DNA from: Puniceicoccus vermicola
GTDB taxonomy: Bacteria > Verrucomicrobiota > Verrucomicrobiia > Opitutales > Puniceicoccaceae
Assembly: GCF_014230055.1 (NCBI RefSeq)
Contig: NZ_JACHVA010000127.1
Location: 1-64,000 of the forward strand
Reading direction: 5' to 3'
Length of the DNA stretch: 64,000 bases
In this document: positions 8,113 through 42,330 of the stretch, in pieces
Layout: the number at the start of each line of letters is the position of its first letter
Position numbering within the stretch: position 1 is the stretch's first letter
Program-made: the position numbers and the translations under genes
Notes under the pieces: model-generated
Told to the model about the DNA's origin: nothing
Seen by the model: only the letters and a program-made list of their open reading frames with translations
Databases searched by the model: none

Positions 8113-8703
8113 GTGTTTCGGGACACTCTTCCTCACTGGGTTGTGGACCGGGGATGTTATGCGGTCACTCTCCGCTGCCACGGGAGTTTGCCCGCCGAAG
8201 TGCTTTTTCGCTTACGGGAATATGGAGAGGCCGAGGAAGAACGTCCGCCTTCCAGCGAAGTCTATGAGCAACGACAACGGCATCTTTTCCGCATCCTCGA
8301 AACCTATCTGGATCAAGGTACGGGTTTCGCCCCGTTCACGGACTCCACTCTCGCCCGAATCTGCTCCGAATGGCTCAGGACCTACGATGAGGACGGACTT
8401 CGCTTTTCCGATTGGAGCGTCATGCCCAATCACCTTCACCTGATCACCCAGCCATTGTTTTGCGATTCCTGCGAAACCTTTCGAACGATCTGGGTTCGTT
8501 TTAAGATGAGGGCCTCCCATCTACTCAATCAGAACCTATCCCGAACGGGAAAGGTCTGGCAGCGATCTTGGTTCGACCGCTGGATCCGCACCCCCACAGA
8601 ACTCGCCCACTGGCAGAACTACGTCGAAAGCAATCCAGCAAAGACTAGACTCTGCCAGCAATCGCAAGACTGGCCAGGGAACTCGAATTATCGGAAGCGG
8701 TGA
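8113..8703 (+). CDS. REP-associated tyrosine transposase RAYT-1 (Y1/HUH family)
   Basis: A 196-residue IS200/IS605-like transposase domain protein. The HUH motif is in VMPNHLHLI (about residue 103), and the C-terminal helix WQNYVESNPAKTRL holds the expected catalytic Tyr. The stretch WFDRWIRTPTE is typical of RAYTs. It shares the N-terminal pattern W-V-GCY-VT-RC-GSLP with the second RAYT at 41.3 kb. It starts at a GTG (8113). Two family A units lie on each side. RAYTs cut single-stranded REP hairpins next to a guide tetranucleotide; here that would be GTAG. Confidence 0.88.
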   Translation: MFRDTLPHWVVDRGCYAVTLRCHGSLPAEVLFRLREYGEAEEERPPSSEVYEQRQRHLFRILETYLDQGTGFAPFTDSTLARICSEWLRTYDEDGLRFSDWSVMPNHLHLITQPLFCDSCETFRTIWVRFKMRASHLLNQNLSRTGKVWQRSWFDRWIRTPTELAHWQNYVESNPAKTRLCQQSQDWPGNSNYRKR

Positions 8704-38630: not shown

Positions 38631-38858
38631 GGGATCGCACGACTAAAGTCATGCTAGAACGGGGGAGAATCGTTCCCGACTGACTTTAGTCATTCGGACG
38701 ACGCGGCCTACAGACTCGAGCCCAACGAGGACGTTACCTCGCCGCGGAGTAGCTTCTGAACCTTTCGCCAGATTTCTACCGCAGCAGTCGCACGACTGAA
38801 GTCATGCGAGAACGCGAGAATCGTTCCCGATTGACTTTAGTCATTCGGACGACGCGGG
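38631..38858. repeat. Family B (GTTC) REP pairs, two copies
   Basis: Copies at 38631-38707 and 38785-38858. Each has two hairpins facing outwards: an inverted GTTC-TAGCATGACTTTAGTC and a direct GTTCCCGATTGACTTTAGTC, with TGACT-TT-AGTCA cores and a spacer of about 10 bases. They precede the operator at 38934. Confidence 0.85.
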
Positions 38859-38933
38859 CTGCATGCTTTCGCGATCCAGTGATCGCCTTTGAAGCTATGC
38901 CTCCATCCCGGCGGCAACTCTGGTTGTCAACCC

Positions 38934-38984
38934 ACTTAATGAAAGTTACTTTCATTTTTATATTGCAAGAAACTTTCATTAAGT
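38934..38984. promoter_or_regulatory. Nested palindromic operator/promoter, putative Fur-family box
   Basis: AATGAAAGT-T-ACTTTCATT (38938-38956) is a perfect 9-1-9 palindrome of 19 bp. The half-site ACTTAATGAAAGT at 38934-38946 recurs as an exact inverted copy at 38972-38984, bracketing a TATATT hexamer at about 38959 that could be a -10 box. The geometry resembles Fur/Zur/PerR operators, and a Fur-family gene is third in the operon that follows. The identity of the binding protein is inferred. Confidence 0.7.
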
Positions 38985-38998
38985 CAAAACCGTGAATC

Positions 38999-39754
38999 AT
39001 GAAGATTCACGCAAGTACACTCATCACGAGCGCCTCCATTCTCCTCATCTCGGCCGGAGCGGCCTCGGCACAATTGGTTTATACCGCCGGTCACGCCGAC
39101 ATCGGGATCGCATACGAAGACGGAGAACTCGAACCACACTGGCACGTCGGGAGCGGCGCAATGGTGGACGGATCACCTCTCGCCACCGAAGAAGAATATG
39201 CGCCCTCCGAATTGATTGCGCAGGTCTCTTCTGTCCGGACCTCTCCCTCGGGTCTATCCAGCGGGATTGGCGTCGCCGACGGAACTGAAATCTACACGGC
39301 TGGCACCGCGGGCTACCAACCCAACCTAGGATTCGGAGCCGAAGAGCTCAGCCCCAGTGATTGGATTGGGTCCATCACGCTAACCCTGACCGGATGGAGC
39401 ACCCCTTCCGGTGAAAACATTTCGCTCTACACGATGAACCTGGCCAACACCTCGGTGGCGGATATTGCCTTCTCGAGCTTCAACAGCGGATCTACCTTCG
39501 ACAACAATAGCGTAACCTTCCTTCCCGGAGATCATTTCCACCTCAACTGGGGATTCACGGACCTCGGAAACTTTGACGTTACCTTCAAATGGACAGGGGA
39601 GCATGTGACCGATGGCATTGTTTCCGCTGAGCAAACCTTCAGCCTCCAAGTCGTTCCCGAGCCGGCGCAGACGACTGCGATAGCGATGGTCGTAGCTGCC
39701 GTCGGGGCGGTTGCCTGCCGTCGGCGACGCTCTCCACAGAAAGCCTCCGTTTGA
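38999..39754 (+). CDS. Choice-of-anchor M domain surface protein with PEP-CTERM anchor
   Basis: 251 residues: signal peptide ending AGAASAQ (about residue 24), then a domain with HADIGIAYEDGELEPHWHVG, EEYAPSELI, LGFGAEELSPSDWIGSITL, LTGWSTPSGENISLYTMN and LPGDHFHLNWGFTDLGNFDV. This pattern is that of the surface-anchored repeat found beside metal ABC transporters in Actinobacteria (choice-of-anchor M). The C terminus VPEPAQT, a hydrophobic helix and CRRRRS is a PEP-CTERM sorting signal processed by exosortase, so the protein is exported and surface-bound. The several His may bind metal. First gene of a probable operon. Confidence 0.85.
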   Translation: MKIHASTLITSASILLISAGAASAQLVYTAGHADIGIAYEDGELEPHWHVGSGAMVDGSPLATEEEYAPSELIAQVSSVRTSPSGLSSGIGVADGTEIYTAGTAGYQPNLGFGAEELSPSDWIGSITLTLTGWSTPSGENISLYTMNLANTSVADIAFSSFNSGSTFDNNSVTFLPGDHFHLNWGFTDLGNFDVTFKWTGEHVTDGIVSAEQTFSLQVVPEPAQTTAIAMVVAAVGAVACRRRRSPQKASV

Positions 39755-40479
39755 GATATTTGGTTAGATCGAGAGGTTCGGAGGAGGTATCTGACCTCAA
39801 GTGCATCTCGGCGGGATTTACTCTCGTCGAGATGCTTCTTGTTCTCGCGGTGCTGGCGACCCTCGCGGCAATCCTCATTCCCGCAGTAGGTAGCGTTCGC
39901 TCCCACGCTCTCCTTGCCGAATGTTCGTCCAATCAAAGACAGATCGGCCTGGCGCTAAAACTATACGCAAATGACAACAAGGGCATCTATCCGCCCTCGA
40001 CCCATTCGACTGGCCCTTTCCGCCGAGACCGAAGCTGGATCTTTGCTCTCAATCAGTATTTCACCAACAAAATTGATGAGATCCGCGTCTGTCCGGTCGA
40101 CCCTCCCGAACGACAAAAGCAAGTTCTCGACCGTGGAGCGACCAGCTATGTCCTGAACGATCTCGTCTTCGACGACCCTCAATACCATGTACAACATTGG
40201 ATTCCCGAACCCTCTAGAACGCTCCTCCTTTTTATACTCAGCGAAGATCGCCCACCGAGCCTGACCAATGATCACATCCATGGCGGGGAATGGACAAACT
40301 GGTATGCAGCCCTAAACGACATCGAACCGGATCGGCACCGCAGTGGGAAACGATCAGCCGACCGTACGAAAGGTTCCGCACCCTACCTTTTCGCGGATGG
40401 CCATGTCGAAGTAATCGAAGCCGCCGATTTCAAAAGCCGATTCGATCGGGGCGAGAACCCCGCAGAAGTTCCGTTCTGA
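39751..40479 (+). CDS. Type II secretion pseudopilin-like protein (prepilin N-methylation motif)
   Basis: 242 residues from a TTG (39751) that overlaps the stop of the preceding gene. The prepilin cleavage motif is AGFTLVEMLLVLAVLATLAA, preceded by a 25-residue leader. The C-terminal half has CPVDPPERQKQ, a Tyr-rich region and YLFADGHVEVIE, typical of the large DUF1559/H-x9-DG pseudopilin group in Planctomycetes and Verrucomicrobia. Its role with the surface protein is not known; co-expression is supported by the overlap. Confidence 0.85.
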   Translation: MRYLVRSRGSEEVSDLKCISAGFTLVEMLLVLAVLATLAAILIPAVGSVRSHALLAECSSNQRQIGLALKLYANDNKGIYPPSTHSTGPFRRDRSWIFALNQYFTNKIDEIRVCPVDPPERQKQVLDRGATSYVLNDLVFDDPQYHVQHWIPEPSRTLLLFILSEDRPPSLTNDHIHGGEWTNWYAALNDIEPDRHRSGKRSADRTKGSAPYLFADGHVEVIEAADFKSRFDRGENPAEVPF

Positions 40480-40552
40480 TCCCCCGAAGATGCTCTCAGG
40501 GCGACCTTGCATTTTATGGAATTCTGACAATGGTATCCCTTGTTATCTCGAT

Positions 40553-40981
40553 ATGGGTCAATCTACGGACAATCTCAAAAAGGCAGTAACGGAGCGCCTC
40601 CAATCAAGTTCGCTACGAATCACCAAGAAGCGGCGGCGAATCCTTGAGGCTCTTCTGAACTTTGACCGCCCCGAAACGGCGGTTGAAATCCGCGAAGGTG
40701 CCAGCCTTCCCGAATCCGATCTCGTCACGGTTTACCGCACCATGGAGGCCTTCGAATCGATCGGCATCCTTCAAAAAGTTCCTCTCGAAAACGGCGGACA
40801 CTTGTTTGAGCTGATCGTGCCTGGCGACCATCACCACCATTTCGTCTGCCGGGAATGCCACAAGGCGGAGCGACTCGAAATGTGCCTCTTCACTGAGCTC
40901 GAGAAACGGGCCAAAACGCTCGGCTTCGCCAAGGTCGCTCACGTCATGGAAGTTTACGGGCTCTGCCCGAAGTGCCAATAA
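40553..40981 (+). CDS. Fur-family metalloregulator, Zur-like
   Basis: 142 residues from the ATG at 40553. The winged helix has LRITKKRRRILEALL and LVTVYRTMEAFESIGIL (DNA-recognition helix). The metal region is DHHHHFVCRECHK, with structural zinc Cys at 99, 102, 138 and 141 (CRECHK and CPKC) and a His cluster. The tail and lack of an acidic Fe-specific motif lean towards Zur, but Fur or PerR are possible. An imperfect palindrome (about 40527-40545) just upstream may be a self-operator. It is the last gene of the operon with the surface protein and the pseudopilin. Confidence 0.88.
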   Translation: MGQSTDNLKKAVTERLQSSSLRITKKRRRILEALLNFDRPETAVEIREGASLPESDLVTVYRTMEAFESIGILQKVPLENGGHLFELIVPGDHHHHFVCRECHKAERLEMCLFTELEKRAKTLGFAKVAHVMEVYGLCPKCQ

Positions 40982-40989
40982 GTATCCGC

Positions 40990-41297
40990 ACAACTCTTCG
41001 TTCCCGATTGACTTTAGTCATTCGGCCGACACGCCCACAGCCTCGCGCTCAACGGAAGCATCTCCGCGACGCGAAAGCCTCCCGAACTTCTCGCAAGGTT
41101 TCATACGCAGGAATCGCACGACTCAAGTCATGCGAGAACCCGGTGCACAACTCTTCGTTCCCGATTGACTTTAGTCATTCGGCCGACACGCCCACAGCCT
41201 CACGCTCAACGGAAGCATCTCCGCGCCGCGAAAACCCTCTCGAACTTCTCGCAAGGTTCCATACGCAGGAATCGCACGACTAAAGTCATGCGAGAAA
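40990..41297. repeat. Family B REP pair, two tandem units downstream of RAYT-2
   Basis: Direct units of about 155 bp at 40990-41145 and 41147-41297. Each starts with GTTCCCGATTGACTTTAGTC and ends with an inverted GTTC-TCGCATGACTTGAGTC-type hairpin about 85 bases later. The two hairpins face inwards, unlike the compact copies at 38.6 kb. Confidence 0.88.
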
Positions 41298-41317
41298 GAT
41301 CATGCGCGAACGAGGGG

Positions 41318-41971
41318 CTATTGAGGAATTTCTTTGGGAATTCGTTGAAACGGATACTCTCTCCCCTCGGGCACCAATCCGGCTTTCACCGGATTCATGC
41401 GGAAATACTCCACCCATCTTTGGTATTCGGAGGGACCCCGTATCCAACGGTCATACCCATTCTTCTGCCAAAATCGGCCTTGCCGCGTCAGTTTTTGGTT
41501 TAGAGCAATGGCAGTCTTTTGTTTAAAATGATTCCACCTCTTGAAGAAATGATCTGCATTCGCGCACGAAAAAGGATCCGTCAGCAGATGTAGATGATTG
41601 GGCATGATCACCCATCCCGCAAAGGCGAGCCCATCTCGCTGATACTTTTCGAGGAGGATCTGGAGTTCTTCGGCCACCTCCGCTTGCCGAAGCGGGGCAA
41701 ACCCCTCCGCACGATCCAAATAGGATTCGAGAATCGCGAAGTGTTTCCGGCGTTGAGCTTCCGCCGCCTCCGATTGGGGTTCAAGAGCGCTCAAGGTCTC
41801 AGCAATTTCGTTCATTTGGCCTAAAGCCGCCTCTGGGAGAGAACCTTCACACCGAAAAGTGACCGAATAGCATCCGAAATCGACCACCCAGTGAGGCAAC
41901 CCCCGAAAAGCAATCTCGACTAGAGAACCATGCCAAGGACTGACCGTGCTCCTAAAATGAACTCTCCTCAT
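41318..41971 (-). CDS. REP-associated tyrosine transposase RAYT-2
   Basis: 217 residues from the ATG at 41971 (the frame is open up to 42079 only through a repeat). The HUH motif is in VIMPNHLHLLTDPF; the C-terminal helix WVEYFRMNPVKAGL carries the catalytic Tyr; NGYDRWIRGPSEYQ is RAYT-like. It shares LPHWVVD-GCY-VT-RC-GSLP with RAYT-1 but the rest is diverged. Family B units lie in pairs on both sides (40990-41297 and 42023-42330), so its guide tetranucleotide would be GTTC. Confidence 0.9.
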   Translation of the reverse strand: MRRVHFRSTVSPWHGSLVEIAFRGLPHWVVDFGCYSVTFRCEGSLPEAALGQMNEIAETLSALEPQSEAAEAQRRKHFAILESYLDRAEGFAPLRQAEVAEELQILLEKYQRDGLAFAGWVIMPNHLHLLTDPFSCANADHFFKRWNHFKQKTAIALNQKLTRQGRFWQKNGYDRWIRGPSEYQRWVEYFRMNPVKAGLVPEGREYPFQRIPKEIPQ

Positions 41972-42022
41972 AGAAAGGTCGAATTCAAATTGGGTGAAGT
42001 AGAATGGTGCCTCCCAAGCGAA

Positions 42023-42330
42023 AACTCTTCGTTCCCGATTGACTTCAGTCATTCGGTCGACACGCCCACAACCTCGCACTCACCGGAAGCATCTCCGCGC
42101 CACAAAAGCCTCCCGAACTTCTCCCGAGGTTTCATTCGCAGGGATCGCACGACTCAAGTCATGCGAGAACGCGGGACACAACTCTTCGTTCCCGATTGAC
42201 TTCAGTCATTCGGTCGACACGCCCACAGCCTCGCGCCCATCGGAAGTATCTCCGCGCCACATAAGCCTCCCGAACTTCTCGCGAGGTTTCGTTCGCAGGG
42301 ATCTCTCAACTCGAGTGATATGAGGACGGG
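42023..42330. repeat. Family B REP pair, two tandem units upstream of RAYT-2
   Basis: Direct units at 42023-42175 and 42179-42330, same internal plan as the pair at 41.0 kb. The final hairpin of the second unit is degenerate (ATCTCTCAACTCGAGTGATA), which may mark an older copy. Confidence 0.87.

Follow-up and report, generated by a model that had tools for sequence, protein, structure and literature searches.

Corynebacterium diphtheriae encodes a set of Zur-regulated proteins, ZnuE, ZnuF, ZnuG, and CmrA, that carry an HxD/HxH motif (PMC12445094, PMC6711530). The histidines of this motif matter for growth at low zinc, and experiments in vitro did not conclusively show that it binds zinc (PMC12445094, PMC6711530). 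ZepA (All3515) of Anabaena is a Zur-controlled, Sec-exported PEP-CTERM zinc exoprotein with homologues that include those of PVC bacteria, and the text of the paper that describes it mentions no pilin (PMC10957091). The Zur box of Streptomyces, an actinobacterial one, has the consensus TGAAAATGATTTTCA (PMC2823685).

The locus considered here lies in a stretch of 64,000 nucleotides of Puniceicoccus vermicola DNA, called the window below. It is probably an autoregulated zinc-starvation surface operon, in which a Zur-type repressor would act on tandem boxes, a choice-of-anchor M (chM) protein would capture zinc, and a pseudopilin would be the dedicated partner of chM. This reading rests on the gene families, the two operators, the recurrence of the box at the chM-locus genes of relatives, and the clade-specificity and co-occurrence of the pilin.

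Surface protein and its neighbours in relatives

The run of chM, pseudopilin, and Fur-like genes named in a preliminary description of this DNA is borne out by matches to NF038134, TIGR02532/PF07596, and PF01475, respectively. The first gene, chM (38999..39754, + strand), encodes a surface protein of 251 aa that matches NF038134 at E 1e-17 (64.8 bits, cut-off 55) with the whole domain aligned, and it is the only chM copy in the genome. The N-terminus is a signal peptide. The HxD codons lie at 39092-39100 and the HxH codons at 39533-39541, which places 144 residues between H32-D34 and H179-H181; in the family, the two motifs are about 150 apart. HxH is present in all chM homologues (62/62), D34 in 56, and H32 in 51. 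At the C-terminus, a Pro-Glu-Pro (PEP at 39656-39664, VVPEPAQTTAIAMVVAAVGAVACRRRR), a predicted hydrophobic helix at residues 224-243, and a basic tail form a PEP-CTERM-like tail, and exosortase homologues were found in this genome. The Pfam PEP-CTERM model gave no match on the window chM and did match the chM of genome G001. The AlphaFold model (pLDDT 89) is beta-rich, and a PDB structure search with it returned nothing significant beyond generic beta-sandwiches and no close solved fold. Actinobacterial anchored-repeat models TIGR03769 and TIGR03773 also match chM, below cut-off. From these features we infer an HxD/HxH metal-binding surface protein that would bind zinc. At loci of relatives such as L061, L068, L069, and L076, a short chM with the PEP-CTERM tail is often accompanied by a longer chM that lacks it.

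In relatives, chM adjoins genes for ZnuD-like receptors, ZigA-like GTPases, MerC, and Fur proteins. The TonB receptor matches the ZnuD model at E 5e-78 and the GTPase matches the ZigA model at 4e-95, both below the strict cut-off, and MerC matches PF03203 above cut-off. This genome has no CobW-family GTPase. Zinc is the metal favoured by context, namely by these ZnuD-like, ZigA-like, and MerC neighbours, by the Zur-like box, and by the HxD/HxH family. A fused MFS/spermidine-synthase-like membrane protein also adjoins chM (L071:1241-3757(-), L068:6920-9427(+), and seven further loci); it often has its own Zur-like box and could serve in the synthesis or export of a small ligand for zinc.

Instead of an uptake device, chM could be a surface store or buffer of zinc, which the pilin merely helps to place at the surface. 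This is rather unlikely, although it has a basis in C. diphtheriae, where ZnuF and ZnuG lower low-zinc growth in the absence of znuABC and storage is a stated possibility. In contrast, ZnuE is required for growth at low zinc, and uptake is suggested by the outer-membrane receptors and zinc GTPases that the chM genes of relatives adjoin.

Tandem operators and the Fur-family regulator

Operator 1 (38938..38956) is a perfect 9-1-9 palindrome, AATGAAAGTTACTTTCATT, with the core TGAAAGTTACTTTCA, and operator 2 (38962..38980) is a degenerate 19-bp copy, ATTGCAAGAAACTTTCATT; neither is assigned to a strand. An outer 13-bp inverted repeat, ACTTAATGAAAGT (38934-38946) with ACTTTCATTAAGT (38972-38984), is perfect, as the preliminary description had held for both repeats. 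By its sequence, the element at 38934-38984 is better read as two predicted tandem operators with a centre-to-centre spacing of 24 bp, and the outer inverted repeat exists because two palindromic boxes are present. The tandem boxes end 18 bp 5' of the chM start codon, and a same-genus genome, G002, has a box pair 23 bp apart 5' of chM. The 5.2-Mb genome contains no second exact copy of the palindrome; a simple estimate gives an expectation of about 0.24 perfect 9-1-9 palindromes in 64 kb, and such a palindrome is therefore not rare. The self-regulated layout suggested earlier, with boxes upstream of a run that ends in a Fur-family gene, is supported. The boxes lie directly 5' of chM. The claim that the repeats enclose the promoter is unproven, as a consensus scan found no convincing sigma-70 promoter.

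A box matrix was trained on the promoters of chM, pilin, Fur, MerC, CobW, TonB-receptor, and MFS-spermidine-synthase genes at 40 loci of relatives. The window box served as the seed, and the final matrix, A[AT]TG[CA]AA[AG]T-N-A[CT]TT[GT]CA[TA]T, contains only the sites of relatives and no window sequence. Across the 64-kb window, the two boxes are the best-scoring sites, at 25.1 and 24.9 bits, followed by a site of 15.9 bits, and 200 simulated windows of 64 kb gave no score as high as 24.9 bits (maximum 23.4). The same box recurs 5' of chM-locus genes in relatives. Sites above 14 bits were found in 48 of 114 chM-locus upstream regions against 12 of 301 control regions, a contrast that is optimistic because the target regions were also the training set. 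Single box-like sites of 20-24.5 bits occur elsewhere in the genome, for example an AT-rich match of 24.5 bits; a lone box is therefore weak evidence, whereas the pair is not. No other promoter of this genome was found to carry a perfect double site, and none of the other single matches examined lies upstream of recognisable zinc genes. A genome scan for further boxes near znu genes found none, and none of the three znuA loci has a strong box (best 14.5 bits, inside a gene). The three ZnuA-type binding proteins that lack a strong box are encoded at 759-1760 of the window and on genome contigs C19 and C82, and the C19 gene clusters with an MntR/DtxR-like gene.

The third gene (40490..40981, + strand) encodes a Fur-family regulator (PF01475, E 5e-18), and its homologues suggest that the true start is probably at 40553 (MGQSTDNL...). 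The regulator contains the structural CxxC...CxxC of the Fur-family domain as CREC and CPKC. It scores 29.8 bits against the Zur model PRK11639 (cut-off 167), and its best NCBIfam scores, to Fur/PerR models, fall far short of the cut-offs, which no Fur-family model reaches. At what we take to be the ligand positions, the Cys of Zur site 2 is absent and the Fur-like Glu of FEL is present. The ligands of the regulator itself do not discriminate zinc from iron; the protein is probably of the Zur type. It is 54-59% identical to the chM-adjoining Fur proteins of loci L053, L058, L076, and L077 in other genomes, and at most 32% identical, in short local matches, to the four Fur paralogues of its own genome. 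The strict trio of the preliminary description did not hold up as the unit that is conserved. Conservation applies to the chM-pilin pair, which the culturable relatives Cerasicoccus arenae, C. frondis, and C. maritimus also have, whereas Fur is adjacent at only about 7 of 40 loci of relatives, and the G002 orthologue of the regulator, 72% identical, lies on a separate contig. The strict chM-pilin-Fur order was seen in just one further genome, G128 (locus L087, identical to L166), and the Fur protein there is only 31% identical, which suggests that this position is taken by another Fur subgroup.

A response to another metal, likeliest iron or manganese, would require a Fur/Mur-type regulator and a chM that binds that metal. 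The top Fur/PerR scores, the FEL...H.HH arrangement of the regulator, which is like a Fur site, and the presence of MntR-like and ZnuA-type genes together elsewhere in the genome would agree with it. However, the chM neighbours of relatives match the zinc models ZnuD and ZigA as well as MerC, the box core is near the actinobacterial Zur box, and the same-motif proteins of C. diphtheriae are regulated by zinc and Zur, all of which makes iron or manganese distinctly improbable.

On either side of the operon lie repeated REP-like inverted units (GACTTTAGTCATTCGG / CGACTAAAGTCATGCG), at 38640-38870, 41000-41300, and 42030-42230. A Y1/RAYT-like transposase ORF with a weak Pfam Y1_Tnp match lies at 41318-42079(-), and the ORF at 8113-8703(+) resembles it by eye.

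Proposed pseudopilin partner of the surface protein

The second gene (39751..40479, + strand) starts with TTG, overlaps the chM stop, and shares four bases with chM. Its product is a pseudopilin of 242 aa with TIGR02532 and PF07596 matches above cut-off. The prepilin cleavage/methylation N-terminus carries the motif GFTLVE (G|FTLVE; TIGR02532, 23.7 bits, cut-off 16.3). The structural model has a long N-terminal helix at 25-75, and a PDB structure search with it gave nothing significant beyond the type IV pilin helix. This pseudopilin is 35-67% identical over its length to chM-adjoining pilins of other genomes, and about 30% identical, in full-length matches, to its own-genome paralogues. The cassette pilins form a single clade (support 99/98) against 32 other pseudopilins. 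DHxH is present in 17/17 cassette pilins and in 0/29 own-genome paralogues, and the longer motif DHxHxxxW, which is DHIHGGEW in the window (codons 40270-40293), is invariant in the cassette pilins and found in 0 of the 29 paralogues.

To survey genomes, a profile of the pilin C-terminal domain was used on 177 of them. The cassette pilin is present in 21, that is, in 21 of the 32 related genomes with chM and in none of the 145 without it (Fisher p about 1e-19, shared ancestry ignored). A second collection of 80 named-genome loci was chosen by the pilin alone, and 79 of these have DHxH. It partly overlaps the first set (for example, L165 is the G002 locus), and the majority of its loci are new. 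The chM core domain lies within 1 kb of the pilin in 73 of the 80, and in four of the seven loci that lack a nearby chM the contig breaks off no more than about 900 bases from the pilin. By record titles, in which MAG labels are possibly wrong, these loci belong to Verrucomicrobiota, Kiritimatiellae, Planctomycetota, and Armatimonadota. The core-only chM profile replaced one that contained the tail, whose PEP-CTERM part had given five false matches beside paralogous pilins, and it found no match beside 29 unrelated own-genome pilins. That chance gene order placed one of many pseudopilins beside chM, with no common function, is strongly disfavoured by this linkage and co-occurrence, by the single supported clade, and by the private motif of the pilin, and is scarcely credible, even though about 40 related pseudopilins in the genome make one near any gene unsurprising.

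The link to the pseudopilin is thus stronger than was claimed at the outset. The conserved pseudopilin is the new part of the system; the partnership with chM seems undescribed, as no description was found in the open-access literature searched. The earlier statement that no description of the combination is known holds only in part, given the Corynebacterium proteins that share the motif and are under Zur control (PMC6711530, PMC12445094) and given ZepA (PMC10957091). The earlier reading of a metal-starvation surface system survives in outline and is narrowed to zinc by independent evidence, with metal binding and repression as its inferred parts.

In the proposed mechanism, the product of the third gene would be a Zur that, loaded with zinc under replete conditions, occupies both tandem boxes and silences the operon. 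Zinc shortage would lift this repression, and chM would be exported and sorted to the outer surface by its PEP-CTERM tail. There, chM would capture zinc with its HxD/HxH site and pass it to uptake systems, which may be ZnuD-like receptors in relatives and, in this genome, ZnuA-type binding proteins. The pseudopilin, a dedicated partner, would be cleaved like other type IV pilins and would either export or display chM or carry zinc itself via DHxHxxxW. Tentatively, and with doubt, the pseudopilin itself may bind zinc through this motif and form, with chM, a zinc-scavenging pilus or pseudopilus. If this is true, such a pilus would represent pilus-linked metal acquisition across Verrucomicrobiota, Planctomycetota, and Armatimonadota.

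Comparison with described zinc systems

These results suggest a conserved pair of proteins that would capture zinc at the surface of outer-membrane bacteria. One group among the very many PVC pseudopilins gains a specific context, and its link with chM makes that one testable. DUF1559 / H-X9-DG pseudopilins of Verrucomicrobiota and Planctomycetota have the same prepilin N-terminus and a C-terminal ADGH motif. The cassette pilins differ from them in forming a separate, chM-linked clade, with a DHxHxxxW that is missing from the paralogues examined.

The operators can be compared with the actinobacterial Zur box. When the central unpaired base is set aside, the 7-1-7 core of operator 1, TGAAAGT-T-ACTTTCA, is one base pair off per half-site. 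The consensus of relatives favours TGCAAAT...ATTTGCA, unlike the actinobacterial box, and the two tandem sites of the window operon are a further difference.

ZepA is also a PEP-CTERM exoprotein, and among the genes near its own are those for TonB receptors, COG0523 GTPases, and Fur/Zur proteins (PMC10957091). Its zinc motif, H-X2-9-H-F/Y-H, is absent from the window chM, which is set apart by HxD/HxH. ZnuE/ZnuF/ZnuG and CmrA/CmrA2 of C. diphtheriae are, like chM, surface or membrane proteins with HxD and HxH about 150 residues apart. Unlike the window operon, the C. diphtheriae znu cluster is Gram-positive, its proteins are sortase- or membrane-anchored with a ZnuABC transporter as partner, no pseudopilin has been reported for it, and zur lies outside the cluster. 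The window operon would extend the recently described corynebacterial HxD/HxH zinc proteins to Gram-negative forms with an exosortase-type (PEP-CTERM) sorting tail.
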